From the NCBI GenBank assembly GCA_026398135.1, contig JAPLTN010000092.1:1-34297 (forward strand): a DNA stretch of 34,297 bases. The letters run 5' to 3'. Source of the stretch: Verrucomicrobiota bacterium. GTDB lineage: Bacteria > Verrucomicrobiota > Verrucomicrobiia > Opitutales > Opitutaceae. The position numbers and the translations under genes are program-made. The first letter of the stretch is position 1, and the number at the start of each line of letters is the position of its first letter. The notes under the pieces were generated by a model that made no database searches, had not been told where the DNA came from, and was given only the letters and a program-made list of their open reading frames with translations. Below are positions 7,444 through 26,877 of the stretch, in pieces.

Positions 7444-10362
7444 TTACTCCGGCAGAAGGATGTAAACGCCGAGCAGGTCCATCGGAAGGACCGGATAGAC
7501 GACCTGAAATTTCTTCGCGTCCATCAGGGCGCTGAAACGTTCGTGGGCGGCGACCAGCTTGAGTGATTGAGCCTCGGCGACCCGGTCGAATTCAGTGCGG
7601 AGTCGGCCGAGAAGCTTTAGCTCATTGTCGAGGAAGCTGGCTCGGGCCGGGGTAGAGAGGTCGGAAGAGGCGCGGGCGGCGAGGAGGAGCGACTTGGCGG
7701 CAGCGTGATCGATGAACTCCTTTAGTTCGGGAGTGCCACGCCATCCCCAGAGCACCATTTCCTCGGCTACGATCTGATGGCGGCCGGCTTTTTCGGCGAT
7801 AACGTTGCGGCAGCGGAAGAGGAGCAAGGTGGTCTTGGCCGGAACCTGTGAAGTGCGGATGACGGCGGCGCGCGCCGCACGATGGCCTTCGCGCGCGAGG
7901 GTGTTGGCCATGACGACTTGGCAGAGCTGTTCGACAAAGCGGTGGTTGCGTCCGAGGTAATAAACGCCTTCCGGCGTGGGTGAGGTGAAGCCAATGGAGA
8001 GAGTGGATTCTCCCTTCGCGGGCTTGGGCAGCAAAGCGACCAGCGGGGGCGGTAGATTGCCAAGCACGAGACGGTAGCAGCCGAGTAGCTTGGGGAGAGG
8101 CGAGACCTGGACGCCGAGAATTTCATTAAGAGTGGTGACGACGAAGGTCTCGACGGCCTTGGGATCGCCAATGGCCTCGTCCACTTCCTTGAGGTCTTGC
8201 TCGATCTCGTCGGCCTTTATGGAGTTTTGGGCAAAAATGCTGCGGGAGGTCTTCTCGCGCTCGGCGGCCTCGTCGAGCTTACGGGTGATGGTGGCCTTTG
8301 ACTTGGCGGCTTCATCGAATTCATCGAAGCTAAACTGAATCTGGGCGCGGTCTCCGCTGCGGCTGATTTTCCGGTCGGGATTGAGAAGCAGGGCCTGGGT
8401 GATGGTGTCGATTATGCTCTGCGAATCCTCGGGGAAGGGAACGTTGATACCGGTGCTCTTCTTGATTTCACGGACTTTGCGGAGGAGGACGTCGAGGACG
8501 ATGCCGTCGATGGGATTATCCCCGCCGTAAAGCAGGCAGGTTTTGACCTGAGTGGCGGTTTGACCAAAGCGGTCCACTCTACCTTCGCGTTGCTCGAGGC
8601 GATTGGGATTCCAGGGGAGATCGTAGTGGAGAACGGCGGTGAAGAGTGACTGAAGGTTTACGCCCTCGCTGAGGCAGTCGGTGGCGATAAGCACGCGTGG
8701 GCGAGAACGGTCGTGACCCATTTCCTCAATCTTGGCTTTGCGGACGTCATCCGGAAGCTCGCTGGTGATGACTTGAAGGTCGGCCTTGGGGAAACGCTTC
8801 TTCAGCAGGGGGACAAGCTGATCGCCGAGGTAATTCGCGGTAGCAATGTAGCGGCAGAAGATGACGGCGTGAAACCCCTTCTCCAGCCACTCGTCGATGA
8901 TAGCCTCAGCGGCGGCGAGCTTCTGATCGGATTTGGGATTGGCGAGGAGTTCGAGCCCAGCGGCGAGTTCGCGGAGCTGCTGGCGTTGGTAACCCGACCA
9001 GTCGAGGCGCTCGACGACGGCGGTGGGGGAATTGTCGCCCTCATGGCCAAACTCGGTATCGGCGACGGGGTTTTCGGCGAGGTCCTCGGTGTCGGGAGCA
9101 AGTGCAAGGCCGGGGGCGTCCTCGCTGTCCTGCGGAGCGCTGGCGGGGATACCCGCGAGGCGGGCCTTGAGCATCTCGATGCCAGCGCGGGGGCTGGACA
9201 TCACGCCACGCAGGAGACCGAGGGCCGTCCAGTAGTGGACCTTGCGCGTGCGCCCACCCTTGGGCTCGGTGGCGATGAGTTGCTTTGCGAAAGTGAGTAT
9301 TTTTTGAAAAAAAGCGTCGTAGGCTGGAGATAAGTCATAGGCCCACTCGACGGGATCGCGTTCAGGGAAGGGAGTTGATTCTCCCATCCACTTCTCCACG
9401 TCGGCGCGCTTACGCTGCACAAAGTGTTGAGCGAGTTCGCGGCGTTTAGCCGGGCTGGCGCTTGGAAGGTCGAGCGTTTCAAACTCCGGCTTTAGCAGAC
9501 CGAGCAAGGAGTGAAACTCCTCGGGCTTGCCGCTGTGTGGAGTGGCGGTGAGAAGGACGAGGTGTTGCTCAGGATTGGCGGCAAGACGGTTGAGGAGGTG
9601 AAAGCGTTGCTGCTGGGTAGCGGATGCACCGGTGGGGCGGGCACAGGCGTGGGCCTCGTCCACGATCACCAACTCCGGGCACTCATTGATGAAAACGTTG
9701 GCGCGGGAATCGGACTTAATGAAATCAACACTGATAACCTGATAAGGGTAGAAGTCGTAAACGCTGGCATCGCCGTGGATCTGGCGGTCGAGGCTCGCGC
9801 GGGTGTTGGATCGGATGATGACGGCCTCGATGTCGAGTTTGTCGCGGATCTCTGCCTGCCACTGCTCGCAGAGGTGGGGCAGGCAAATGACGGCAAAACG
9901 TTTGATGCGGCGGCGCTCGATGAACTCGCGGGCGATAAGCAAAGCCTCGATGGTTTTGCCCACGCCGACGTCGTCGGCGATGAGGAGGCGTACGGGATCC
10001 TGCGTCTGACGGAGGGCCATGACGAGCGGGACCATCTGGTAAGACCGGGGACGGAATGAGAGCTTGGCGAGGGAGCGAAAAGGGCCGGCCCCGTTGCGAA
10101 AGGCGAGGCGGGCGGAGTCATAAAGCAGGCGCGCGGTGGAAACGTCGCCGAGGTCGGAGGCGGTGGGTTCTTCAAAGCGAGCATCGGACGGGCGGTCGAA
10201 GGAAAGATCGAGCGGGAGGTAGATGCCGGTCGTTTCGTCGTCGGAGCCGCCGAGGGGCTTCACCATGAGAAGGTCTAGATCGTCTGAGGGCAGCACGATC
10301 CAATCACGGCCGCGCAGGGTGACGAGTTTTCCAGGCTGGTAGGTGATGGCGGCGGGACTCAT
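7444..10362 (-). CDS. SNF2-type (HepA/DrmD-like) DNA helicase or translocase
   Basis: This 972-residue protein has a complete Snf2-family motor: motif I ADDVGVGKT (about 127-136), Ia ICLPHLCEQW, motif II VDEAH (about 235), motif III LLTATPHSG, and a C-terminal RecA lobe with VLIATDCLSEGVNLQ and LEQREGRVDRFGQ (about 590). About 110 residues precede the motor and about 350 follow it. The length and layout match RapA/HepA-like ATPases and the DrmD component of class 1 DISARM. The gene starts at an ATG overlapping the stop of the upstream helicase gene by ATGA. In such systems these motors translocate on double-stranded DNA to find or process foreign DNA; this function is inferred from context. 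DpdE-like proteins are an alternative, but no other dpd gene is visible. Confidence 0.9.
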   Translation of the reverse strand: MSPAAITYQPGKLVTLRGRDWIVLPSDDLDLLMVKPLGGSDDETTGIYLPLDLSFDRPSDARFEEPTASDLGDVSTARLLYDSARLAFRNGAGPFRSLAKLSFRPRSYQMVPLVMALRQTQDPVRLLIADDVGVGKTIEALLIAREFIERRRIKRFAVICLPHLCEQWQAEIRDKLDIEAVIIRSNTRASLDRQIHGDASVYDFYPYQVISVDFIKSDSRANVFINECPELVIVDEAHACARPTGASATQQQRFHLLNRLAANPEQHLVLLTATPHSGKPEEFHSLLGLLKPEFETLDLPSASPAKRRELAQHFVQRKRADVEKWMGESTPFPERDPVEWAYDLSPAYDAFFQKILTFAKQLIATEPKGGRTRKVHYWTALGLLRGVMSSPRAGIEMLKARLAGIPASAPQDSEDAPGLALAPDTEDLAENPVADTEFGHEGDNSPTAVVERLDWSGYQRQQLRELAAGLELLANPKSDQKLAAAEAIIDEWLEKGFHAVIFCRYIATANYLGDQLVPLLKKRFPKADLQVITSELPDDVRKAKIEEMGHDRSRPRVLIATDCLSEGVNLQSLFTAVLHYDLPWNPNRLEQREGRVDRFGQTATQVKTCLLYGGDNPIDGIVLDVLLRKVREIKKSTGINVPFPEDSQSIIDTITQALLLNPDRKISRSGDRAQIQFSFDEFDEAAKSKATITRKLDEAAEREKTSRSIFAQNSIKADEIEQDLKEVDEAIGDPKAVETFVVTTLNEILGVQVSPLPKLLGCYRLVLGNLPPPLVALLPKPAKGESTLSIGFTSPTPEGVYYLGRNHRFVEQLCQVVMANTLAREGHRAARAAVIRTSQVPAKTTLLLFRCRNVIAEKAGRHQIVAEEMVLWGWRGTPELKEFIDHAAAKSLLLAARASSDLSTPARASFLDNELKLLGRLRTEFDRVAEAQSLKLVAAHERFSALMDAKKFQVVYPVLPMDLLGVYILLPE

Positions 10363-13300
10363 TTAACCTTTCGGAAGATGTCGGGACGAGCGGACGTTAT
10401 TGCAGCAAGGTCGTCGCGGTAGTGATAAACCCAGACCTCGTCTCCCCGAGCGATGATGGCTTGGCGCTTGGCCTCGTCTTCGGCCTGCACAGCGGGATCA
10501 TCGTGCGGTGTGCCATCGCAAAAGACCCAGATCCGGGACTCATAGTAAAAGTCTGGTTGGACGAAAATGCCTTCAACCCGACGCTGTGCAGAGTCAGGCA
10601 AGCGAAGGCCATGTTGGTAGAGGTGATCGAGGAACTTGCGCTCGGTAGAGGAGGTGGGATCAATGGAGCGAAGCAGCGACTGGTAGTGCTCGTCGTAACT
10701 GGCGAACTTCTCGTTGGTGGAGAGCGTAACGCTGGAGACGCGGAGCTTTTCGAGGGCATCGCGAATGGCGAAGCGGTTGATGCGCTTGTGGTCTCTCTGG
10801 TTGTAGTAGCTCAGCAAGTCGCGATAGGACGCGGGGGCTTTGTAGTCGGCTTCGTGATAAAGGCATAGTTCGATGGCTTTCTCCACGACGGCACGGAATT
10901 TTGAAACGTCCTCCACGAACTGAGAGAGAATACCGAGACTACCCTCGGAGGCCTCGTAGAGGAGAATGTTCGGGCTTTCGGGATCGCCGACCGAGTGAAC
11001 GCCGATCTCGGCAGGTTCTACTTGGAAGACGGATTCAATGGCGCGCTTCAGTGCGTGTTGGAGAGTAACGACACCGTCGGCATTGAGACCAAGGGGCTGA
11101 ACCGGCTGGATGTAGAGGGCGTCTGCAAGGTTCGTGGTAAAGAGTTTTACCAGGCGAAAGACCTCGGGTCGCTTCTCATCGGGCGGCGGAATGGATTGCC
11201 GCCAATCGCCGGATACGAGGCCGAGGGGGAAACCATCCTGATTGGGCTGGGCGCGCCAGTTCTTGTTCACGTGAACGAGACGAGCGGCAGGAATGAATCG
11301 CAGGTTGAGCAGAGTATTTTCCGAGGTGCTAACCAGCGCGCGCCGCACGCGATCGAAGTGTCCTCCGTCCACCGAGAAAAACACCTGCACGTCAAAACCC
11401 CGCGAGACGCGCTCCTCCTCGGCGCAGGAGATGCGCTCGACCTCCTCGGTGCGTGATTCCGACATCTCGATAAGATCTTGGAGAACAGTTCGGTTGGCGT
11501 TGTCGGAAAGATTTAGCCCCGTCATCGGGCATATCTCTTTGTCCTTTTGATCTTCGGGAAAGAAGTAGCCTGCCTTGGTGCTAATCTTCGCAGATTTCAA
11601 TGCGCCTTCGGCGTCCTGAGTGACGAGTTGGTTGATGCGGTATTTCCGACCCCGATGGTAGATTATGTTAAGCGGACCGAACTCGCGTAGTGCGATAGCG
11701 CGCGGACGAGAGATGAATTCGCCTGCGGTGCCGTCAGGCGTGGGAATAAACACGCGGAGCGGAAGACGTGTGAAATTATAGCCGGGCAAGAAACCCTCGG
11801 ACGCGAGATAGCGATAAGGATAAAACTCCGACAATTCGGCGAAACCTCCGCCTTCGTTGCGCAGAAGGCCAAGCTGGTGGGATGACTGCTTCTGTTGGCG
11901 GTCAAACTTGCGATACTCCTCCGAACCGGGCGTGAGGACGCCAGCTTCGATACGTTGAGTGGCACGCGTAAGAATAGCGCGAGCAGAGCGGTAGATATGC
12001 CGCCACCGCTCTAAGGAGCGGTCCAGGTTGTCAGTGATCTTGGAGAGGTTCTGATCAGCCCATTGATCGTTAAACCACGATGCAGCATTAGTGCGGAGTT
12101 CGTCTGCGAAATCATGCACGACACGCTGGAAGGTGTCTTTAACCTGCGAGCGCGTGGTCGGACTGAGTTCGAGGCCAGCTCGAACAGACGGTGCCAGATC
12201 GAGTTTATGTCCGTCATCGACCACGAAACGCATGAGCGAAGGACGGCCACCGTTTTCAGTTTCTAAACCAGGCAGCCCGATTTGCGATATGAGAAGGGCA
12301 TTTAAGTGAGATGCCAGTAGCTCGCGATTGCACAGATCGAGGCGCGGAGCCTGCACGGCACCGGCAACGAGGTCTTTCTTGTTTTCGAAATAATGCCGGT
12401 CATGTGGCGAGTAACTGGAACAGTAAGTAAACACCAGGGCGGCTTGGCCGCTGCGCCCGGCCCGACCTGAGCGCTGCGCGTAATTGGCGGGATTGGGCGG
12501 CGCGTTGCGCATGTGGACAACGCTCAGGTTACTGATGTCGATGCCCAGCTCCATAGTTGGAGAACAGAAGAGGGCGCTAATGTCGCCTTTGCGGAACTTC
12601 TCCTCGCGGTCGATACGGGTGTCAGTGTTGAGCTGGCCGGTATGATCCTCACCCTGCAGACGTTTGGTTTGTGAGAAATCTCGGAGGTAAAGCCGTTGAA
12701 AAAAGGCGTTGGGACGGACCTTGGCGCGATCCTTGTATGAACGCTGTTTTACGGCGTCGATGCGCACGGTCTCCCGGTCACCAGCGCGCCAGACGAGCAT
12801 GTGCAAAACGAGACGATAAACGGGCACCTCCAGGTTGTCAGAGCTACGAGCTTTAGATGAAGCGAGGTAGCCGGCGGATTCGAGTTTGGAGAAGAGACGG
12901 GTGATAAAGGCGTCGTAGTTGGCCTTGCGGAGATCCACTTGGATGCCTTGGCGCTCGACGAAGAGCTTGATGAACTTGCCGAGGGAGCTGGCGGGGCCAG
13001 CGCTGACTGCGCTCAGTCCAGTATTGGCGCGAAGGGTGTGGAGGCGGATGTGCTGCGGTTCGCGCAGTTTCTCGTCGCGGTCCAAGGTCCAAGGCGCGCG
13101 GAGCATGGCGCGGAACTCTTTTTCGACCTGACGAAGACGTGATTCGTTCAAAAGGTCGCTTTCGATGGCGAACTCCAGACGGCAGAAATCGAGGACGGTG
13201 CGAACGAAGTCGGCGCGAAGCTCCGGCGTAAGATCGCTAAGAACCGGAACATCGGACCAAAAGGTATTGGAATCGGGTCCGGTGTTCTCCTCTAGGTCGC

Positions 13301-15512
13301 GATAGTCGATGCGAAGCAGGGCACACTGTTCGAGGTTGGGTAGGATTATTCGCCAACTGCGACGCAGGTCGGCGATGGCCTGGTAAAGCAGGAAGTCTTG
13401 GAATTTCTCACGGAAACCTCTGAGCGTGGCTGGCGGGAGGTTTTCCTCCGAGGTGTTGGCATACTCCGTAACCTTTGCTAAGTTTAGCGCCTTGAAGATC
13501 GCTTCGCCGAGGCCGGAAAAGGCGAGCGACTTCCCAGGTGCGTCATCGAGGGCTTTACGGATGGCGGCGCGCAGCCGGATGATTTGAACGAAATCGTTAA
13601 AGTGTCCGGCTTGGAGAGCGGCATCCTGGCGATTATCCGTGAAACTCAGTAGCTTTTGGTCGGGTCGAGGAAAGCCCGCGTCGGCCAGTTGGTTGAGGAT
13701 GGAGAAGGTCGTGATGGTGGTGGATGTGCTTCGACCCTCGCTGCCAAGTTTGGTGAGCTTGGTGCCTTCCTTGGTCTTGGTGTCGTAGAAGGTGCCGCTG
13801 GTTGGGTCGAAGAGAAGCGGCGCACGCATGAACCACCCCCACCAACGCTTGGGAATGGTTTCGGAGCAGTTTCCGAACTCGTCAAAGTGGAGTTTTACCG
13901 GGAAGAGGTGTTTGTAGTCTTTGCGCGCGGAGTAGGCATTCTCCTTGTTAGCCTTAACCCAGGCGTCAGGCATTAGCTCCATGTCTGACTCATCCCAGAT
14001 GCCTTCGCCGACTATAAGATAGCCGTCCTGCGTATCAGCGTCGTCGTCAGATTCGCGCTCCTGAAATTCGCGAGGTTCCAGCTTGTTCCCAACCCGAGTA
14101 ACACAAATGAAGGCATGGCCGCTCGCACGGCTAAATACATTCGGGAAAATCGGCTTTTGCTGCTCGTCGTCAGCACGGAAAAGTCCGGGCTCAAGGGTGA
14201 TGAAGCGACCATCACCGTCCTGATCGAGTGTGGTGTAAACAGAACCCGTCTGTGATATAAATTGGTGAAGCTTGAAGGGTAGCAGAGTATATCGCTCGCC
14301 TGAATCCTGGAGTGCTTTATTGGCGGCACTAATCCACTGGAGGAGTTGTTCTAGATGGGCACGGGCGGCCTCTGGGGAAACGCCGGCATCGGCAGCCAAC
14401 TGATGAACGATCTCCACTAACTCAAGCGGGCGGCAGCGGACGAGACGACCTTCGCGCGTCTCGATGGCAGCGGTGTTCTCCAACCAAGTCGCAACCGGGT
14501 GGGAACGGAGTTTGGATACGGAAGCCGTGAGTTCGACAGGGGCTGAAATTGCCGCTGCGAGTGCAGGGCCATCAGGTGTCGAACCGGAGTAATCGAGCGA
14601 ACGAGTTAATACCTCGTTGACCACTTGGGAAGGGGCGAAGGCTCGACCGAAGAGTTTGGTGGCAACTGATGCGACTTGCACTTGCTGCTCTGCTAAGGTG
14701 CCACCGGAGACCATCGTCGCGGATGTTCCAATACAGACTAAATCATGCGAACATTGAGCCTGGATGCGACGGACGAGCATCGCTACGTCCGCTCCCTGGC
14801 GACCGCGGTAGGTGTGGAGTTCGTCGAATACGAGGAAGCGGAGATTAGCGTAGATACCGTCGCGCATGCCGCGCTCGCGCACGCGAGTAAGCAGAAGCTC
14901 CAACATCATGTAGTTCGTCAGGAGAATTTGCGGTGGGTTGTCCCGCATCGCCTGGCGCTGCTCCTCTTTTTCTTGGCCGGTGTATTGGCCGAAGGTGATG
15001 GGGAACTCTTTCCCGGTGCTTGCGGTGTAATTGGCCTTGTAGCGCTGGAACTCGGCGTGCTGCGAATTAATGAGCGCGTTCATCGGGTACACGACCACCG
15101 CAGTCACGCCCTTGGATGAAGGGTTTTTGAGCAGATGATCGAAGATCGTCCCCATGTAGGTGAGCGATTTACCCGAACCGGTGCCGGAAGTGACGACGAA
15201 GCCCTTGCCGGATGCGCCGAGTTTAATGGCCTCAACTTGATGGCGATAGAGCTTGAAGAGCTGCTTGGTTTTGGCGTCCCGAAAAATATCGGCGAATGCA
15301 GGGTGAACAACCTGCTGTTGAGTTAGCACGGCAACATCCCCTGCTACCTCGAAGGACGGGTTGAACTGAAGAAGAGGAGAGGGCCACAGCTTGCCGCTTT
15401 TGAGTGATTCTTCGACCTTCGCCAGGATCTTTTCGTCCGCGATATTCAGGAAGCTTTTAATGTAAGCTTCATAATCCTGAACGATTGCGGAGTGAGTGCG
15501 TAGGATGTCCAT
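10359..15512 (-). CDS. large DEAD/DEAH helicase of DrmA/DruE (DUF1998) type with possible C-terminal nuclease domain
   Basis: This 1717-residue protein is the first gene of the operon. It has an SF2 helicase core: Walker A TSGTGSGKS (108-116), Ia VYPMNALINSQ, motif II FDELH (230-233), motif III GTSAT, and a second lobe with SPTMELGIDISNL and QRSGRAGR (about 1012-1019). The far C-terminal part contains a DUF1998-like stretch (ILLYEASEGSLGILSQF), but the four zinc-binding cysteines usual in DUF1998 are not seen; only one Cys (ELCLYHE) remains. The last 70 residues (PDFYY, VFCDGTPHDDPA, QAIIARGDEVWVY) resemble Vsr/DUF559-type endonuclease folds. Very large helicases of this type are the hallmark of Druantia (DruE), and a shorter version is DISARM DrmA, which works with a separate DUF1998 protein DrmB. 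Here both functions would be on one chain. The nuclease call is inference. Confidence 0.9.
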   Translation of the reverse strand: MDILRTHSAIVQDYEAYIKSFLNIADEKILAKVEESLKSGKLWPSPLLQFNPSFEVAGDVAVLTQQQVVHPAFADIFRDAKTKQLFKLYRHQVEAIKLGASGKGFVVTSGTGSGKSLTYMGTIFDHLLKNPSSKGVTAVVVYPMNALINSQHAEFQRYKANYTASTGKEFPITFGQYTGQEKEEQRQAMRDNPPQILLTNYMMLELLLTRVRERGMRDGIYANLRFLVFDELHTYRGRQGADVAMLVRRIQAQCSHDLVCIGTSATMVSGGTLAEQQVQVASVATKLFGRAFAPSQVVNEVLTRSLDYSGSTPDGPALAAAISAPVELTASVSKLRSHPVATWLENTAAIETREGRLVRCRPLELVEIVHQLAADAGVSPEAARAHLEQLLQWISAANKALQDSGERYTLLPFKLHQFISQTGSVYTTLDQDGDGRFITLEPGLFRADDEQQKPIFPNVFSRASGHAFICVTRVGNKLEPREFQERESDDDADTQDGYLIVGEGIWDESDMELMPDAWVKANKENAYSARKDYKHLFPVKLHFDEFGNCSETIPKRWWGWFMRAPLLFDPTSGTFYDTKTKEGTKLTKLGSEGRSTSTTITTFSILNQLADAGFPRPDQKLLSFTDNRQDAALQAGHFNDFVQIIRLRAAIRKALDDAPGKSLAFSGLGEAIFKALNLAKVTEYANTSEENLPPATLRGFREKFQDFLLYQAIADLRRSWRIILPNLEQCALLRIDYRDLEENTGPDSNTFWSDVPVLSDLTPELRADFVRTVLDFCRLEFAIESDLLNESRLRQVEKEFRAMLRAPWTLDRDEKLREPQHIRLHTLRANTGLSAVSAGPASSLGKFIKLFVERQGIQVDLRKANYDAFITRLFSKLESAGYLASSKARSSDNLEVPVYRLVLHMLVWRAGDRETVRIDAVKQRSYKDRAKVRPNAFFQRLYLRDFSQTKRLQGEDHTGQLNTDTRIDREEKFRKGDISALFCSPTMELGIDISNLSVVHMRNAPPNPANYAQRSGRAGRSGQAALVFTYCSSYSPHDRHYFENKKDLVAGAVQAPRLDLCNRELLASHLNALLISQIGLPGLETENGGRPSLMRFVVDDGHKLDLAPSVRAGLELSPTTRSQVKDTFQRVVHDFADELRTNAASWFNDQWADQNLSKITDNLDRSLERWRHIYRSARAILTRATQRIEAGVLTPGSEEYRKFDRQQKQSSHQLGLLRNEGGGFAELSEFYPYRYLASEGFLPGYNFTRLPLRVFIPTPDGTAGEFISRPRAIALREFGPLNIIYHRGRKYRINQLVTQDAEGALKSAKISTKAGYFFPEDQKDKEICPMTGLNLSDNANRTVLQDLIEMSESRTEEVERISCAEEERVSRGFDVQVFFSVDGGHFDRVRRALVSTSENTLLNLRFIPAARLVHVNKNWRAQPNQDGFPLGLVSGDWRQSIPPPDEKRPEVFRLVKLFTTNLADALYIQPVQPLGLNADGVVTLQHALKRAIESVFQVEPAEIGVHSVGDPESPNILLYEASEGSLGILSQFVEDVSKFRAVVEKAIELCLYHEADYKAPASYRDLLSYYNQRDHKRINRFAIRDALEKLRVSSVTLSTNEKFASYDEHYQSLLRSIDPTSSTERKFLDHLYQHGLRLPDSAQRRVEGIFVQPDFYYESRIWVFCDGTPHDDPAVQAEDEAKRQAIIARGDEVWVYHYRDDLAAITSARPDIFRKVK

Positions 15513-20164: not shown

Positions 20165-21193
20165 ATGAAAACACCCAAAACCAATCCCCCGCCCGAGTCC
20201 GGGGAAGCTCCCGACTGCCATCCCGATGACCCGGTTTTGAGCGTAAAAAAACTTAAGGACTTAGAACGAGAATCACGGAAGCCAGACTCCCTCCTTTCAC
20301 GTAAAATCGACCTAGAGGAGAATTTTAAGCGGGCGCATCCTCGACTAAGCGGAATGACGCGTTCGCAGCGCTCTGCGGTCTATGATTTGCTTGGCCGGGC
20401 CTTGGCTCACTACGGCGATTTCCCGCCGCAAAGCCAAGGTATCCCTCAGCAGTGGAACTCCCTCATGATCGGTCCCACCGGTTGTGGAAAAACATCCATC
20501 GTCGAAACCCTGACGGAGTTGCTCGGCGGTTTGTGCGTGAAATGCACGCACGGCAGCTGGATTCCTGCCGGTGCCTACGAAGGCCACACCCAAACCTTAA
20601 AAATGATCATCAACGCCGTCGGTCGCGCCGAGCGCGTGGTGGTGTTTGTGGACGAACTGGATAAGTTTTTCGGCAGCCAAGAGATCAGTAGCTGGCACAG
20701 CTCGGTGCTGAATGAGCTTTGGTTACTGCTCGATAAATCACCGGTCTTGAAACGTGAGCATCTGGCCGAGGTGAAGACTGCCGATTCCATCGAAGACTTA
20801 GGTCGGTTGTTCAAACAACGTACTTTCATCGTCGCAGCTGGAACCTGGCAGGATGTTTTTAAAAGAAAGCCTTCCGCAGGCTTCGTTCCATCCAGTACGC
20901 AAAACACCGCGTTTCAGGAAATTATGCGGCGTGGCACCCTGCCGGATGAGGTTAGGCGACGCTTTCATTCCAAGGTCATAGAGATCAAATATCCCGATGA
21001 AGCCGACATCCGCCGAATCATCGCGGCAGATGACTGGCTAGTCGAACGCCTGCGCATCCAGCAGATTACCCCCGATTACGCCGCACTCTGCCGCGAGGTC
21101 CGCGAAATCGGTATGACGGCGCTTACCAGCTACAAGGCCGAGCATATCCTTGCCGACAGTTACCGCAAACTGGCCGCGCGCTTCACGCTTTAA
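20165..21193 (+). CDS. AAA ATPase
   Basis: This 342-residue protein has a Walker A GPTGCGKTS near residues 103-110, Walker B VVVFVDELDKFF near 155-166, a sensor-1-like region IVAAGTWQDVF, and an arginine-rich stretch LPDEVRRRFHSKVIEI that fits an arginine finger. The first 60 residues are charged and Pro-rich. The core resembles ClpX-type and AAA_2 ATPases, but the zinc-binding and protease-docking elements of ClpX are not seen. It has a CGGAG ribosome binding site about 10 bases upstream of the ATG. It is divergent from the phosphoesterase operon and ends overlapping the end of the convergent XRE gene. Its target is unknown. Confidence 0.85.
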   Translation: MKTPKTNPPPESGEAPDCHPDDPVLSVKKLKDLERESRKPDSLLSRKIDLEENFKRAHPRLSGMTRSQRSAVYDLLGRALAHYGDFPPQSQGIPQQWNSLMIGPTGCGKTSIVETLTELLGGLCVKCTHGSWIPAGAYEGHTQTLKMIINAVGRAERVVVFVDELDKFFGSQEISSWHSSVLNELWLLLDKSPVLKREHLAEVKTADSIEDLGRLFKQRTFIVAAGTWQDVFKRKPSAGFVPSSTQNTAFQEIMRRGTLPDEVRRRFHSKVIEIKYPDEADIRRIIAADDWLVERLRIQQITPDYAALCREVREIGMTALTSYKAEHILADSYRKLAARFTL

Positions 21194-21459
21194 GGTCTAT
21201 TGTTACGACCAAACCCCGAAGGAAAAAACTCATGAAGCTCCATCTGCAAAGCTTGGGCAAACGCGGCCAACTCGTAATCCATCACCGGTCGCCGGCCCGA
21301 CTCCACTTTAGCGATTTGGGTCCTAGTCAACACCACGCCATATCTGGCCACTCGCCCACACAGGTCCTCTTGAGAGATGCGCGGCCTGGCGCTGCGTCGC
21401 AGCTCCTTCAATCGGCTGCCAATCAGATTACGGGGGTAGGTTGGAGTGTCGCGGATCAA
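21190..21459 (-). CDS. XRE-family helix-turn-helix regulator
   Basis: The protein is a single Cro/CI-type HTH domain: IGSRLKELRRSARPRISQED, LTRTQIAKVESGRRPV, ELAAFAQALQMELHEFFPSG. From a TTG at 21459 it is 89 residues; a GTG at 21477 would add six residues. I prefer the TTG because an AAAGG ribosome binding site lies about 6 bases upstream. A copy of the 19-bp palindromic motif covers this region, so the gene is probably autoregulated. Its stop overlaps the stop of the convergent AAA gene (21190-21193). It is probably the repressor of the neighbouring PEP-CTERM gene and of the 121-aa membrane protein gene at 23.5 kb; that is inference from shared motifs. Confidence 0.82.
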   Translation of the reverse strand: MIRDTPTYPRNLIGSRLKELRRSARPRISQEDLCGRVARYGVVLTRTQIAKVESGRRPVMDYELAAFAQALQMELHEFFPSGFGRNNRP

Positions 21460-21460
21460 G

Positions 21461-21479
21461 GTGTGCCTTTGGGGCACGT
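21461..21479. promoter_or_regulatory. XRE operator-like motif, copy 1
   Basis: GTGTGC-CTTTGGG-GCACGT. It overlaps the start and ribosome binding site region of the XRE gene and abuts a perfect TTGACA (21479-21484), a -35-like hexamer for the plus-strand PEP-CTERM gene. Compare the copies at 21507 and 23519. The right arm differs from the perfect copy at one or two positions. Confidence 0.6.
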
Positions 21480-21505
21480 TGACAGGACCACAAATTTAAT
21501 AAGAA
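21479..21505 (+). promoter_or_regulatory. candidate promoter of the PEP-CTERM gene
   Basis: A TTGACA at 21479-21484 is followed 15 bases later by TAAGAA at 21500-21505. The spacing is short and the -10 is poor, so this is tentative, but it is bracketed by the two operator-like motifs, which is what a repressed promoter would look like. Confidence 0.4.
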
Positions 21506-21506
21506 A

Positions 21507-21525
21507 AGGTGCTTCTAGGGCACAC
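21507..21525. promoter_or_regulatory. XRE operator-like motif, copy 2
   Basis: AGGTGC-TTCTAGG-GCACAC, matching the consensus at 11 of 12 arm positions if the first base of the left arm and G/T substitution are allowed, and sharing the GG before the right arm. It lies 42 bp upstream of the PEP-CTERM start codon and about 46 bp centre to centre from copy 1. Confidence 0.55.
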
Positions 21526-21566
21526 TTTCAGCAATCTTCACCCTAAACCCATCCACACCACATCTC

Positions 21567-22265
21567 ATGAAGAAGACTTCCTTCTCTGCTCTCGCCTTGA
21601 GTCTCGCGCTCGGGGCCGCCGCTTCCGCCAAAGCTGCCGTCCTCATCACCATTGATGTCGCCAATATCGCCAGCGAAAGCGTCCGGTTCAGCGCCACCAG
21701 CGGCGCTTCCTCCGCCACCGATTCCAGCTTCACCACCGGCAATGGCATCTCACTGGTCGATTTCATCAACTTCGGCAGCGGCACGGTTTACCGCCCCGCT
21801 TACTTCACCAATCAAGCTGGTAGCAGCGTTAGCACATATAGCTTAGGCACTTTCGATTTGAAATCCGCCTCAGTAACGGCATCCGATTTCTTTAATGGTT
21901 ACGGGGTCGGGCTTACTACAATCGGTAATAGCTCCTTGTACGAGTTGGAAATCTACAATGGCTTTGCCTCCGGCCTCACAACCGCCATGAGCTTCGTAAC
22001 CGGTGAGACTGCATTTACTGGCTCGGCGCTCGTTACCGGCACCTTCAAGTCTGGCAGCACACCTCCCCCACTGTTTGATTACATCCCCGCCGTGGGCACC
22101 ATCGGCGACATTGTCACCGGGTTCCGTACCACCATCGGCCCCGTAATCGGTCAGTGGCAGGTGATCGACAGTTCCGCCATCCCCGAGCCCAGCACCTACT
22201 CCGCCTTAGTCGGCCTCGCCACCCTCGGCTTTGCCGCTCTGCGCCGCCACCGTCGCGCTGTTTAA
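21567..22265 (+). CDS. PEP-CTERM sorting-domain exported protein
   Basis: This 232-residue protein has an N-terminal signal peptide (MKKTSFSALALSLALGAAA, cleavage near AKA at residue 23) and a C-terminal PEP-CTERM tail: IPEPSTYSALVGLATLGFAA followed by LRRHRR. In other bacteria this tail directs export by the exosortase system and removal at the outer face; no exosortase is in the window. The mature middle part (about 180 residues) is Ser/Thr/Gly-rich with alternating beta pattern, typical of extracellular proteins, without a recognised domain. The gene is preceded by operator-like motifs of the XRE regulator and followed by a hairpin terminator. Role outside the cell, perhaps in the cell surface or matrix, is inference. 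Confidence 0.9.
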   Translation: MKKTSFSALALSLALGAAASAKAAVLITIDVANIASESVRFSATSGASSATDSSFTTGNGISLVDFINFGSGTVYRPAYFTNQAGSSVSTYSLGTFDLKSASVTASDFFNGYGVGLTTIGNSSLYELEIYNGFASGLTTAMSFVTGETAFTGSALVTGTFKSGSTPPPLFDYIPAVGTIGDIVTGFRTTIGPVIGQWQVIDSSAIPEPSTYSALVGLATLGFAALRRHRRAV

Positions 22266-22297
22266 CCATCACCCGCAGGCCCGCCTGCCTTCACTAA

Positions 22298-22328
22298 AAG
22301 AGAGACCTGACGTACTCGGGTCTCTCTT
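22298..22328 (+). terminator. hairpin terminator after the PEP-CTERM gene
   Basis: AAGAGAGACC at 22298-22307 pairs with GGTCTCTCTT at 22319-22328 around an 11-base loop, a perfect 10-bp stem. It lies 33 bp after the stop. There is no long T-tract on the plus strand; on the minus strand the stem is followed by TTTT, so it may work in both directions. Confidence 0.75.
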
Positions 22329-22402
22329 ATGAAAATGCACCCACTTTCAGGCATGCAGTGACTTAGGTCGTCCCAAAAGCGGCCTAGTGAGGAAACCCGA
22401 AT

Positions 22403-23083
22403 ATGAAACGCGTTGAAGAGACCTTTTTCGTAATGGCTGACGAAAATAAAATAGGGCCATTTTCACGCCGCAAACTCGCCGCTTACTATGTGGTTGGCGC
22501 GATTAAGCACGATGACCTCGCCTGTGCAAGCTCGATGGGAATTTGGAGCTGGGTGCCGCTTCGAGAGTTACTCGATCTCAAACAACTACGGGAATATGGG
22601 CGTAGCCTCGAACGACAGGAGCGCCGCTTGGCCCCACGAAAACGCCGTATCTCGGCTGCTGTTTACGATCTGTTATACCTTTATGGTTACATGCTTATTG
22701 GCATCCCTGTATCATGGTTGGTTCATATTCTGCCATGGATGGTCATCAGTGGTTATATGGGATCGCGCAGGGTTGTTGCCTTGACCCTGATTATTTCCTG
22801 CTCCCTATACGTTCTATTATTCTGCGCCTTGCAGTATTACATGTTATGTAAAACGGGCCAGACCCTGGGCCGACGTCTAGCTAAGGTTAAAGTGATCGGT
22901 ATTGATGGACGTCAGCCAGACCTTAAACACATTACGCTTAGAACATTTCTTCCTTTTGCGATTTCTCCATTACCCATGATTGGCGCTATTGCCATGATGG
23001 TGAGCATCATAATGTTTTGCTGTCCCAAACGGAGAACGCTTTATGATCGGTTCGCGAAAACCTGTGTAATCTACTACCCCTGA
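22403..23083 (+). CDS. GYF_2-RDD family membrane protein
   Basis: The N-terminal part is a GYF_2 domain (KIGPFSRRKLAAYYVVGAIK, then DDLACASSMGIWSWVPLREL), a small domain found in many planctomycete and verrucomicrobial membrane proteins. From about residue 85 on it has an RDD-like domain with three hydrophobic segments (YDLLYLYGYMLIGIPVSWLV, LIISCSLYVLLFCALQYYML, and FAISPLPMIGAIAMMVSIIM) and the conserved GQTLGRRLAKVKVIGIDG loop. RDD proteins are transport-like or regulatory membrane proteins of unclear role. There is a GAGGA ribosome binding site at 22389 about 10 bases before the ATG. It is followed convergently by a 121-aa gene. Confidence 0.85.
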   Translation: MKRVEETFFVMADENKIGPFSRRKLAAYYVVGAIKHDDLACASSMGIWSWVPLRELLDLKQLREYGRSLERQERRLAPRKRRISAAVYDLLYLYGYMLIGIPVSWLVHILPWMVISGYMGSRRVVALTLIISCSLYVLLFCALQYYMLCKTGQTLGRRLAKVKVIGIDGRQPDLKHITLRTFLPFAISPLPMIGAIAMMVSIIMFCCPKRRTLYDRFAKTCVIYYP

Positions 23084-23137
23084 ATATCAAGCATCAGGAA
23101 TGCATGGCCAACTCTAAATGCGACCGAAGCCCAGGTT

Positions 23138-23503
23138 TTAAATCGGCAACTTCAGCGCATATTGAATCTGAATCCATAGGTATGCGAACAACAGAAACCC
23201 CATGTAGAGCGCACCGATTAGCACCAACAGGCCAAATAATACTTTAAGCAGGAAAAAGGTCCGTTTGCGTTTGCCGCGCCAGTTAGCGTAATTTCGTGCT
23301 TCAGCTAAGTCCGCATCTTCTTGAAGAGAATCAAGGAAATCGTGATTTTCTTGGTTATAATGAGGTGGAGGAAAACTGCCCGGACCAGAATCCGTAGAGT
23401 GGCCAACGATTTTAAATGATGCGCCACGGCCCATCCGACCATGAGTATCCCCTGAAATATATAAAACATTCTGGGTAAAAAATTTAATAATCAGGGATTC
23501 CAT
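23138..23503 (-). CDS. small membrane protein with one transmembrane helix
   Basis: This 121-residue protein has a hydrophobic segment near residues 85-108 (FLLKVLFGLLVLIGALYMGF) preceded by a basic cluster (RGKRKRT), which fits a single membrane-spanning helix with the N-terminal part in the cytoplasm. The N-terminal half is Gly/Pro-rich with no recognised fold. I do not recognise the protein. An operator-like motif lies 15 bases upstream of the ATG, and the gene is a likely target of the XRE regulator. It is convergent with the GYF_2-RDD gene. Confidence 0.6.
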   Translation of the reverse strand: MESLIIKFFTQNVLYISGDTHGRMGRGASFKIVGHSTDSGPGSFPPPHYNQENHDFLDSLQEDADLAEARNYANWRGKRKRTFFLLKVLFGLLVLIGALYMGFLLFAYLWIQIQYALKLPI

Positions 23504-23518
23504 GTTTCTGGGAATTTA

Positions 23519-23537
23519 GTGTGCTTGTTGGGCACAC
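23519..23537. promoter_or_regulatory. XRE operator-like motif, copy 3 (perfect palindrome)
   Basis: GTGTGC-TTGTTGG-GCACAC, with perfectly complementary 6-bp arms. It lies 15 to 34 bases upstream of the start of the 121-aa membrane protein gene on the minus strand, a position where a bound repressor would block the promoter or the start of transcription. It is the best conserved of the three copies. Confidence 0.65.
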
Positions 23538-23642
23538 AACCGGCAAGCCAAATCGACCCTTTATAAAGCAATATATTTAGTTCAAAAACGAAGTTTCGGG
23601 CCACAAATTAAGAACCTTCAATATCATAACGCACCGATTGTA

Positions 23643-24190
23643 TTAACCCACGGTCGGCAGTTTAGCTAGCGTGGCTCGCTTGGTATCGGAGCTGACGTGA
23701 GTATAATGGCGGCTGATGGCCTTTGAGTTGTGCCCGATGATGCCCATCGCGATCGCTTCGCCTACACCTGCGGTTTTGAGGAGTGAGGTCGCCGTATGGC
23801 GCAAGGAGTGGAATGTAATTTCTGAAACCTGACGCTTTCGGCTGCGGCCCTTTTGAGCATTAGGGGCGCGGTAATCTTCCGGGTGGGCGTAGGCCTTCCG
23901 GCAGCCACCAAGATATCGCGAAACGCTTGGGAAAAGCGGCTATCGTCAGTCGTTTTGATCGCGATTGGGTAAGAAGCAGGGAACACCGGAGCGTTGGGGC
24001 TTTTAGGCGTTTCGGCCTTAGGCAATCAGTTCTGAGTCGGTGCGGCGAGTAGGCACTCCATAAAGCTTTTGGTTTTCGCGCCCGTGAAGCGAAGCAGGCC
24101 GGCTTTGAGGTCGATGTTGTTCCAGCATAGCTTGGCGATGTCTTTGAGCCGCTGGCCGAACTGGGTGTCGGATGTGAAAAGGTCGTCATG
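23643..24190 (-). pseudogene. tyrosine recombinase (integrase) C-terminal remnant with frameshifts
   Basis: Three minus-strand reading frames together spell the C-terminal half of a phage-type integrase. The 5' part reads FGQRLKDIAKLCWNNIDLKA (about 24050-24160), ends in a stop, then PKSPNAPVFPASYP with SRFSQAFRDILVAAG in another frame, then YRAPNAQKG and FHSLRHTATSLLKTAGVGEA, ISRHYTHVSSDTKRA in a third frame to a TAA at 23643. The catalytic pattern R (GQRL), HxxRH (HSLRH) and the terminal Y (HYTH) are still visible. At least two frameshifts break it, and the N-terminal domain is gone. It is a marker that the accessory region was built by integration next to the tRNA gene. Confidence 0.85.
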
Positions 24191-24713: not shown

Positions 24714-24789
24714 GTCTCCGTAGCTCAAGTGGATAGAGCGGTCGTTTCCTAAACGACTGATCCGTGTTCGACTCACGGCGGGGACACCA
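24714..24789 (+). tRNA. tRNA-Arg (CCT anticodon)
   Basis: A complete 76-base cloverleaf is visible: acceptor GTCTCCG pairs with CGGGGAC, with encoded discriminator A and CCA (24786-24789). The anticodon stem GTCGT/ACGAC encloses the loop TTCCTAA, anticodon CCT at 24748-24750, which reads AGG. The T arm is CCGTG, TTCGACT, CACGG. The 3' part is duplicated at 25635, so this gene is an integration target. Confidence 0.93.
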
Positions 24790-24793
24790 GGCT
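24733..24793 (+). repeat. direct repeat copy 1 (3' end of tRNA-Arg), att-like
   Basis: These 61 bases cover the last 57 bases of the tRNA gene plus four more (GGCT follows CCA). They match 25635-25695 with one difference, at 24752 (A) versus 25654 (G), inside the anticodon loop. Such duplications of the tRNA 3' end are the product of site-specific integration by tyrosine recombinases. Confidence 0.85.
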
Positions 24794-24814
24794 AACGACT
24801 TCCAAAGGATATAT

Positions 24815-24864
24815 GGTCGAACAGCGCGGAATTTCGGCAGGATTGTTCTACCATTTGTTCGACC
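24815..24864. repeat. 9-bp inverted repeat inside the tRNA-flanked segment
   Basis: GGTCGAACA at 24815-24823 pairs with TGTTCGACC at 24856-24864 across 32 bases. It lies 25 bp downstream of the tRNA and could be a recombinase or excisionase arm site, or a remnant of one. Nothing else in 24794-25042 looks like a gene. Confidence 0.4.
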
Positions 24865-25042
24865 AAAAAACGGAGGAGTCGGTGAGCCTGTATCATGTAA
24901 ATGATGCCAGTTCCCCATAGGGTGTAGACTGGCGTCTTGCTCAGGGTATGAAGCGCACAAGTGTCGCCACTTCTCGCAACGCAGGCCCAGCCGTACTCCA
25001 CGCGGGCCTTGTTGGCGGGAGGACTTTGAACCCAGACACGAT

Positions 25043-25258
25043 CTAGCCAGCAACCGCATCGGCCAGCAAGGTCTTGATGTAGGACTGGTAGGGCACGCCG
25101 CGCTTGTGCGCTTCACGTTTCAGGCGCTCCAACACCGAGACGGGCAGGCGCAGGGAGATGGGCTCGCTGGTGGGCTTGAGCGCGGCGAAGACCACGGGGC
25201 GCGCCTGGCTAAAGTCGGCGATCTCGGTGCTGGTATCAGGTTTCACGTATTTTTTCAT
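25043..25258 (-). CDS. brnA: BrnA-type antitoxin
   Basis: This 71-residue protein starts MKKYVKPDTSTEIADFSQAR and carries a C-terminal ribbon-helix-helix-like domain (EPISLRLPVSVLERLKREAH, then GVPYQSYIKTLLADAV), the pattern of BrnA antitoxins. BrnA binds DNA and blocks the BrnT RNase. The gene starts 22 bases inside the toxin gene's 3' end, so the reading frames overlap by 23 bases as in typical brnTA operons, with the toxin first. The ATG at 25258 was chosen because the homologous N-terminus starts here; the open frame further upstream is toxin sequence in another frame. Confidence 0.85.
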   Translation of the reverse strand: MKKYVKPDTSTEIADFSQARPVVFAALKPTSEPISLRLPVSVLERLKREAHKRGVPYQSYIKTLLADAVAG

Positions 25259-25538
25259 AATCGGTTCTTTCTTTTCGACTGGCAGGGCGGGCGGAGATGA
25301 CGCGGATTTTTGAGCCGCGCACAGTGAAGACGATACGGAGGACTCGCCCCGCCTCGCTAAGGCCAAAAACAAACCAGCGGGGCTCGCCGTCCTCGGCGCG
25401 GGTGGCGGGCAGCACCACGGGAAGGCGGAAAAACACTTCCTCCACCTCGGCATTGCCGATCTGGTGTTTGCCGGGGTTTTTGTCGGTGTTGCCCGCATCC
25501 CACTCGAAGCCGGCAAGGGCGGAAAAGTCGGGGGTCAT
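25236..25538 (-). CDS. brnT: BrnT-type ribonuclease toxin
   Basis: This 100-residue protein matches the BrnT layout: FEWDAGNTDKNPGKHQIGNA, EVEEVFFRLP, WFVFGLSEAGRVLRIVFTVR, IRVISARPASRKERTDYE. The Arg and Glu of the ISARxAsrkE segment and the KH of the N-terminal motif are those expected for this RelE-like RNase. The start is the ATG at 25538; a longer open frame reaches 25958 but runs through the tRNA repeat and aroC, so it is not coding. Upstream is an A+T-rich stretch (TATATTTTTTT on the minus strand) suited to a promoter. The pair is the only cargo between the two tRNA 3'-end repeats. Confidence 0.87.
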   Translation of the reverse strand: MTPDFSALAGFEWDAGNTDKNPGKHQIGNAEVEEVFFRLPVVLPATRAEDGEPRWFVFGLSEAGRVLRIVFTVRGSKIRVISARPASRKERTDYEKIRET

Positions 25539-25634
25539 GTAGCGAAAAAAATATACATAGCGGTCGGAAGTCAAGCGCTGTTCGGGGTATCCGCCAGCTT
25601 GGCGGCTGTCCTGGAGCAAGCATCTGACGATTGA

Positions 25635-25695
25635 ATAGAGCGGTCGTTTCCTAGACGACTGATCCGTGTTCGACTCACGGCGGGGACACCAGGCT
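25635..25695 (+). repeat. direct repeat copy 2 (partial tRNA-Arg), att-like
   Basis: This matches 24733-24793 over 61 bases with one mismatch but lacks the 5' part of the tRNA (acceptor 5' strand and most of the D arm), so it is not a functional tRNA. It marks the far end of the inserted segment, next to aroC. Confidence 0.85.
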
Positions 25696-25782
25696 TGGGT
25701 GTGGACCGGAGTTAATCGGGGAGCGCGCGGGGTGTTTTTGTCCCTTGCGGAGTGCGGGCGGGCGGGCAACTTAGCCCGCGCG

Positions 25783-26877
25783 ATGCCCAACAGCTTTGGA
25801 CACCTTTTTCGTATCACCACCTGGGGCGAGAGCCACGGTCCTGCCATTGGCGTGACCATCGACGGTTGCCCGCCCCGGCTGCCCATCAGCGCGGCCGAGA
25901 TCCAGGCTGAACTCGACCGCCGTCGGCCCGGCCAGAGCGACATCACGACCCCGCGCAAGGAAGCGGACAGCGTGGAAATCCTTTCCGGCGTTTACGAGGG
26001 CATGACCACGGGCACGCCCATCGCGCTGATGGTGCGCAACACCGACCAGCGTTCCTCGGCATACAACGAAATGAAGGCCGCTTTCCGGCCCTCGCACGCG
26101 GATTTCACTTATCAAACCAAGTTTGGCATCCGCGACCCGAACGGCGGCGGGCGCAGCTCGGCGCGCGAGACCATCGGGCGCGTCGCGGCCGGGGCCATTG
26201 CGAAAAAAATTCTCGGGCTGGGCGGGCTGGAAATCCGCGCTTACATCACGCGGGTGCACGACATCGAGGCGCCGGCCGAGGCCTTGGTGGAGTTTCCCAG
26301 CTTGGCCGAGGTCGAGGCCACGGCGGTGCGGTGTCCGCATGCCGCGACGGCGGCGGCGATGATCGAGCGCATCAAGGCGGTGCGCAGCGAGGGCGACTCG
26401 GTGGGCGGCGTGATCCAGTGTCGCGTGCGCGGCGTGCCGGTGGGTTTGGGCGAGCCGGTGTTTGACCGGCTGGAAGCGGATCTGGCCAAGGCGATGCTCT
26501 CTCTGCCCGCGACCAAGGGTTTCGAGATTGGTAGTGGTTTCGCGGGCACGCGCCTGCGCGGCTCCGAGCACAACGATCTTTTCGAGAACCGCGACGGGCA
26601 CATTCGCACCGTGACCAACCGCTCCGGCGGGGTGCAGGGCGGGATCAGCAACGGCGAGGAGCTGGTGTTCAACGTCGCCTTTAAGCCCACCGCCACGATT
26701 CTCCAGGCTCAGGCCACGGTTGATCTGGCCGGGCAACCGGCCGAGTTGATGGGCAAGGGGCGCCATGATCCTTGCGTGGTGCCGCGCGCGGTGCCGATCG
26801 TCGAGGCGATGGCGGCGCTGGTGTTGCTCGATCACTGGATGCGCGATTCGGCCCAGAACCGAACCTTTGAATTTTAA
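25783..26877 (+). CDS. aroC: chorismate synthase
   Basis: AroC catalyses the last step of the shikimate pathway, 5-enolpyruvylshikimate 3-phosphate to chorismate, using reduced FMN. The 364-residue product shows all three family signatures: [20 protein letters not shown] at the N-terminus, the central [20 protein letters not shown], and the C-terminal region [20 protein letters not shown]. The length matches bacterial AroC. The ATG at 25783 gives the usual N-terminus MPNSFG; an open frame further upstream runs into the partial tRNA repeat and is not coding. The gene lies 87 bp downstream of the repeat and 7 bp upstream of the P-loop gene, so the two are probably co-transcribed. Confidence 0.97.

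Follow-up and report, generated by a model that had tools for sequence, protein, structure and literature searches.

Paired palindromes at the promoter of a small XRE regulator suggest an autoregulatory switch resembling restriction-modification controller proteins

The locus considered here raises the question of which protein acts on three similar palindromes in a 34,297-nucleotide stretch of bacterial DNA, and which of the adjacent genes it thereby controls. This stretch, hereafter the window, makes up the entire contig C7 of a genome assembly with 117 contigs and 3.39 Mb. The first of the palindromes, which carry no strand assignment, is a candidate proximal operator (S1, 21461-21479, GTGTGCCTTTGGGGCACGT) that adjoins the start codon of a small XRE regulator gene; the second, a candidate distal operator (S2, 21507-21525, AGGTGCTTCTAGGGCACAC), lies between this gene and a divergent PEP-CTERM gene; and the third (S3, 23519-23537, GTGTGCTTGTTGGGCACAC) is a lone perfect copy with no partner site seen, possibly an operator in trans, located 15 bp upstream of the ATG (23503) of a 121-aa ORF. 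Measured against GTGTGCn7GCACAC, S1 and S2 have two mismatches each and S3 has none, and GG precedes the right arm in all three. A first-pass annotation had reported these sites, the shared GG and the 15-bp distance, all of which we confirm, and had interpreted them as a compact regulon in which the XRE protein represses its own gene and both of the others.

We find that the three palindromes are more than a product of chance. The perfect 19-bp form has a single occurrence in the genome, namely S3. The annotation had also proposed a genome scan for the motif, and the 15-bp core GTGCYTNTDGGGCAC, composed with all three sites in view, proves not to be scattered, its three exact matches genome-wide being S1, S2 and S3; at up to one mismatch it has six matches (the three exact ones and three more) versus 10 for the reversed control. 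A test independent of S3 is afforded by the bases common to S1 and S2 within the 15-bp core (GTGCNTNTNGGGCAC), which S3 fits exactly; by simple arithmetic with equal base frequencies a site of this type is expected about 0.4 times per genome and about 0.0005 times within 2 kb. No further GTGCNTNTNGGGCAC site is present in the list from the core scan, in which a double mismatch at the degenerate positions would go undetected. The centres of S1 and S2 are 46 bp apart, and their pair score of 8.5 was equalled by none of 300 shuffles. The loose 19-bp pattern GTGTGCn7GCACAC with up to three mismatches shows no enrichment in the window (18 matches versus 13.8 expected; 17 of 100 shuffles had 18 or more).

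The XRE gene (21190..21459, minus strand) encodes a protein of 89 aa from TTG 21459, or of 95 aa from GTG 21477, whose match to Pfam HTH_31 barely exceeds the cut-off (27.9 bits against 27). It is a single-copy gene, as at E 0.01 the protein matches itself alone in its own genome, and one tblastn search against plasmids returned no match. Homologs were recovered from 25 of 189 related genomes at E 1e-8 and, with a 29-member profile, from 31 of 387 genomes of the phylum at E 1e-10, the genome of the window being included in both counts; the sole relative from the genome-contig scan, 67% identical, belongs to a MAG labelled Opitutus sp. GAS368 (L009). We collected 56 upstream regions of such genes, window and L009 included, and used 55 of them, L020 being too short; L059-L064, as repeats of loci already taken, and profile matches without a locus are outside this set. 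Scoring looked in each region for a pair of palindromes that resemble one another. With a score of 9.5 or more as the threshold, a matched pair was found 44-48 bp apart in 22 of the 55 regions and 53-56 bp apart in seven; three regions had pairs at other spacings (32, 34 and 66 bp), two of them being also positive at 44-48 bp. The threshold was not reached at either of the two main spacings in 26 regions, among them that of the window with its 8.5 at 46 bp. In 1,100 shuffled sequences (20 per region) there were five hits over 80 spacings, none at 44-48 bp and one at 53-56 bp. A second control drew on the other ORFs of these neighborhoods, with 204 upstream regions: five hits at 45-47 bp coincide by coordinates with the XRE pairs themselves, and hits were also obtained in three more regions, in L041 at a spacing of 48 bp.

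The palindromes of these pairs vary in sequence by lineage, being TGGGTGAnnnTCACCCA-like in L017 and L036, AGTTTCn7GAAACT-like in L031 and L033, GCTCC-type in L074, L075, L081 and L086, and TGTTCCn5GGAACA-like in the class with 54-bp spacing. L009 has its pair at 45 bp. Other layouts were also seen: upstream of the XRE gene L076 has three TGCTCC palindromes of nearly the same sequence, with scored spacings of 66 and 45 bp, and L010, L011, L012 and L014 have ATTATTC-type repeats arranged, by eye, unlike the 46-bp pair. At four further places (L108-L111), three lie inside ORFs called by a simple caller and the fourth has no promoter that is clear by eye. No title describing a paired layout in this bacterial group was found in the literature searched, the coverage of which was partial.

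Which protein would bind these sites is suggested by a comparison of 34 aligned loci chosen by eye, 26 of a 46-bp and eight of a 54-55-bp class, including five that score below 9.5 (the window, L022, L023, L026 and L071). Operator similarity correlates more with identity over a 15-residue recognition-helix stretch (Spearman 0.52) than with that over the remaining residues (0.23); the partial rank correlations are 0.48 and 0.10, respectively, the former being reached in none of 2,000 permutations, and these statistics amount to support rather than proof, as the loci share ancestry and are not independent. When only the 245 distant pairs within the 46-bp class are considered, the plain correlation is 0.48 for the helix and 0.14 for the rest. 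Because the palindrome sequence thus tracks the recognition helix across lineages, it is very likely the XRE protein that binds the palindromes. As expected of an autoregulated XRE protein, it combines an HTH domain with palindromic sites of its own at its promoter. Autoregulation through such binding, as the annotation had supposed, is strongly supported by the comparative evidence, namely the conserved pair, its covariation with the helix and the promoter geometry.

This geometry bears first on the start of the XRE gene. At 23 of the 26 46-bp-class loci the reading frame has a start codon 9-17 bp past the proximal centre, for which reason TTG 21459, one base past S1, is more likely to be the start than the GTG within S1; the annotation's view that S1 overlaps the XRE start is thus probably to be amended. 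Within the 14 nt searched, a TAnnnT box occurs at 18 of the 26 46-bp-class loci and at all eight of the 54-55-bp class, and in these 26 of the 34 loci its distance from the distal centre is nearly fixed (29 bp in 18 loci, 29.5 in seven and 28.5 in one), while the spacing of the two sites ranges over 44-55 bp. Of the eight remaining loci, four have the TA but not the last T and four, including the window, lack the TA; in the window the expected place, 29 bp from the S2 centre, is occupied by TCCTGT (21482..21487, minus strand), a deviating and weak candidate for a -10-like element. On the assumption that TAnnnT serves as the -10 box, the centre of the distal site would fall near -41 relative to the predicted transcription start, where class II activators are known to bind and where a bound protein is also known to cover the -35 box. 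Since the distal site sits where class II activators bind, repression may be only half the story. In the 54-55-bp class the TA is followed after 12-13 nt by a start codon in frame, and the proximal palindrome falls in the first codons; in the 46-bp class the start codon comes after the proximal site, from which a short leader is predicted.

The TTGACA noted in the first-pass annotation is present next to S1, and its assignment as the -35 element of a divergent promoter may not hold. GTCAA, the complement of the TTGAC within it, recurs next to the proximal site in 18 of the 26 46-bp-class loci. Two of these are L017 and L033, whose nearest listed upstream ORFs have the orientation of the XRE gene; on this ground the TTGACA may belong to the XRE promoter.

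Taking these features together, we propose, with a probability of roughly 0.7, that the locus encodes an autoregulatory switch like that of the controller (C) proteins of restriction-modification systems. The small XRE protein encoded at this locus would bind the palindromes, with S2 and S1 as the autoregulatory pair flanking the promoter of its gene. A dimer on the distal site, near -41, would aid RNA polymerase or cover the -35 region, and a dimer on the proximal site, located where the transcript begins and next to the start codon, would block RNA polymerase, such that the gene sets its own level as C genes do. The PEP-CTERM gene, which shares the intergenic region, would probably be affected, and S3 would probably allow the XRE protein to repress the 121-aa ORF.

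The strongest competing account, somewhat less probable than not in our estimation, confines the regulation to S1 and S2, with the PEP-CTERM gene a bystander and S3 a chance match or relic. The PEP-CTERM gene (21567..22265, plus strand), a possible second target, codes for a protein matching PF07589 (24.9 bits, cut-off 20.7) and TIGR02595; nine PEP-CTERM matches exceed the cut-off in the genome, and this protein was matched in two of 150 family genomes, its own included, at E 1e-10. In keeping with a bystander role, the gene opposite the XRE gene differs from genome to genome, being an outer-membrane beta-barrel gene in L009 and a prepilin-like gene in L029, and the position of the PEP-CTERM gene is what suggests its control by the XRE protein. 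A third operator was likewise sought in 14 neighborhood sequences of relatives, and no clear one was found, the scans giving two-mismatch hits and one coding match to a GTGC arm (L009); in these scans the L047 pattern missed even L047's own pair. The pair is moreover the only exact match in the whole genomes G048 and G059, with GGTGTC-type (32 matches versus 14 for the control in G048) and AGTTTC-type operators, respectively. At up to one mismatch the AGTTTC-type operator has 17 matches versus 26 for the control in G059, 17 versus 10 in G019 and seven versus 11 in G111. The TGGGTGA-type operator at up to two mismatches is in excess over its control (76 versus 20 in G066 and 39 versus 8 in G111), and relatives may accordingly have weak further sites. 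Against a chance or relic origin of S3 stand the expectation of about 0.0005 for such a site within 2 kb and the fact that neither of the other two sites is as perfect as S3.

Downstream of S3 lies the 121-aa ORF (23138..23503, minus strand), possibly a membrane protein given a hydrophobic stretch seen by eye, with no Pfam family and an NCBIfam hit below cut-off; among the 150 family genomes searched at E 1e-4 it was matched in its own alone, with no homolog in the 149 others. Between the PEP-CTERM gene and S3 is a 226-aa gene for an RDD protein. At the two family distances from S3 there is no TAnnnT (AATCCC and TGCCGG are found instead), and TAAATT lies 10 bp past the S3 centre. If it works, S3 most likely represses, and from its position we infer that the 121-aa ORF may be under XRE control through it. 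Nearby, at about 23640-23850 on the minus strand, a frame that is broken upstream resembles, by eye, the C-terminal end of a tyrosine integrase. Farther on, at 24714-25691, the 3' end of a tRNA-Arg is repeated over at least 29 bp (25663-25691), and the repeat copies flank a BrnT-type toxin and a CopG-type antitoxin, the whole being perhaps a small integrated element.

A plain three-gene repressor regulon, essentially the first-pass interpretation, would have the XRE protein act solely as a repressor, both of its own gene and of the PEP-CTERM and 121-aa genes, and we regard it as unlikely. It accounts well for the well-matched sites at three gene starts and nowhere else in the genome, for the fit of S3 to the bases common to S1 and S2, and for the place of S3 10 bp before TAAATT, which is suited to repression. 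It is less easily reconciled with the lack of conservation of the divergent genes among homologs, with a TTGACA that may be part of the XRE promoter, with the fixed place of the distal site near -41, which hints at activation, and with a 121-aa ORF that has no relative in the genomes searched. Of the compact regulon as annotated, the three well-matched sites stand; an XRE regulon reaching beyond them is unsupported, as the genome has no fourth exact core match. That the repeats are instead RNA hairpins, recombination sites or ends of a mobile element, as might be suspected from their being inverted repeats and from the integrase-like remnant near S3, is very improbable in view of operator sequences that track the recognition helix, a distal site that precedes the predicted transcription start, and copies in L030 (CGCGACATGTCGCG) that are nearly loopless.

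Returning to the C-like switch, the gene order of the 54-55-bp class is that of a controller gene before its effector. In four of its eight loci (L024, L035, L058, L069) the ORF directly downstream encodes an SRA-HNH protein, called by Pfam in L024 (SRA just below cut-off), L035 and L069 and by tblastn only, in two pieces, in L058; in the other four (L019, L034, L070, L071) it encodes an SLFN-g3 helicase, and the two of these scanned with PADLOC both match PDC-S41, a candidate defence family. It is possible that the XRE protein of this class controls a modification-dependent restriction gene or a candidate defence gene. No recurring downstream gene was seen in the ORF lists of the 46-bp-class neighborhoods. 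Upstream of the XRE gene, L019, L024, L035 and L058 have divergent ORFs of 98-107 aa that are similar by eye, the L035 copy having no Pfam or PADLOC match, and in L081 a second small XRE-like ORF (1775-2002) lies directly downstream of the XRE gene. Defence-type helicase genes occur near the XRE gene in both the window and L009. In the window, two large helicase genes (7444-15512, minus strand), one DpdE-like (PADLOC E 9.8e-185) and the other partially DruE-like (best E 1.1e-87), adjoin a Schlafen/AlbA-type gene and metallophosphoesterases, perhaps as a defence island; L009, which has the closest XRE homolog, carries BrxD-like and BrxHI-like genes at 17-3000 (PADLOC E 7.3e-129 and 3.4e-282).

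The sequence relationship also points to C proteins. The solved structures nearest to the 29-member profile are C.AhdI (E 3.4e-6) and C.BclI (E 3.8e-6), and the window protein has a weak match to the PADLOC Control_protein model, which has no cut-off (E 1.6e-4). Like C proteins, it is a small single-domain HTH protein (89 aa, HTH_31) related to them in sequence, with two palindromic operators upstream of its own gene, a feature shared by S1/S2 and the relatives. No endonuclease or methyltransferase Pfam family was detected in the 14 window proteins scanned between 2466 and 23503, beyond which the scan covered two ORFs (25043-25958); because no linked restriction gene was found among the scanned proteins, we call the protein C-like rather than a C protein.

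Among known systems C.Csp231I and C.EcoO109I come closest in layout: in the part of PMC3115060 available, CTAAGn5CTTAG occurs twice, about 18 bp apart, with 7 bp more in C.EcoO109I, so that they too are small HTH autoregulators with two palindromic operators and an unusually long gap before their own gene. By arithmetic on these figures their operator centres are 33 bp and about 40 bp apart, versus 44-55 bp in the XRE family; C.Csp231I further has two extra C-terminal helices (PMC3115060, in part), unlike the 89-aa window protein, which, in contrast to both, has no adjoining restriction gene. The C.Csp231I-class transcript is described in the available portion of PMC4824078 as leaderless and as activated, then repressed, and C genes are said there often to yield leaderless transcripts. 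C.AhdI and C.BclI, closest to the XRE family by sequence profile among solved structures, are classical C proteins, in whose C-boxes, per the same portion of PMC3115060, both operators fit within about 35 bp around a central GT, unlike in the XRE family. For C.Kpn2I, an operator situated within the beginning of the C.Kpn2I gene itself forms a roadblock to elongation, and the proximal palindrome of the 54-55-bp class likewise falls in the first codons; among the C.Kpn2I features described in the accessible part of PMC6237814, however, a distal upstream operator is not included, and the gene setting is different. Palindromes upstream of XRE genes have been predicted in bulk, with nine of 10 tested interactions bound (PMC12565409, in part); its main text contains neither "tandem" nor "two motifs", "Verrucomicrobi" or "Opitut", and the paired layout was not seen in the parts available, though single palindromes of this XRE group may be among its clusters.

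In a broader perspective, we tentatively suggest, as a possibility that we hold to be rather less than even, that these proteins are widespread C-protein-like autoregulators of the phylum of the window, presumably the Verrucomicrobiota, to which Opitutus, the genus on the label of the L009 MAG, is assigned. Their operator pair would be split and re-codable: its distal member would keep a set distance from the -10 box, and the proximal one could shift in position. Defence-type nuclease and helicase genes would be under the control of one branch; in others, such as that of the window, the switch would have lost its tie to restriction genes and come to act in trans on exported or membrane proteins. 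With numerous natural combinations of recognition helix and palindrome, set in a promoter layout that hardly varies, the family would offer a readable protein-to-operator code. The specificity of binding, and the way in which a restriction controller turns into an orphan regulator, would be directly testable with small proteins and short DNA.
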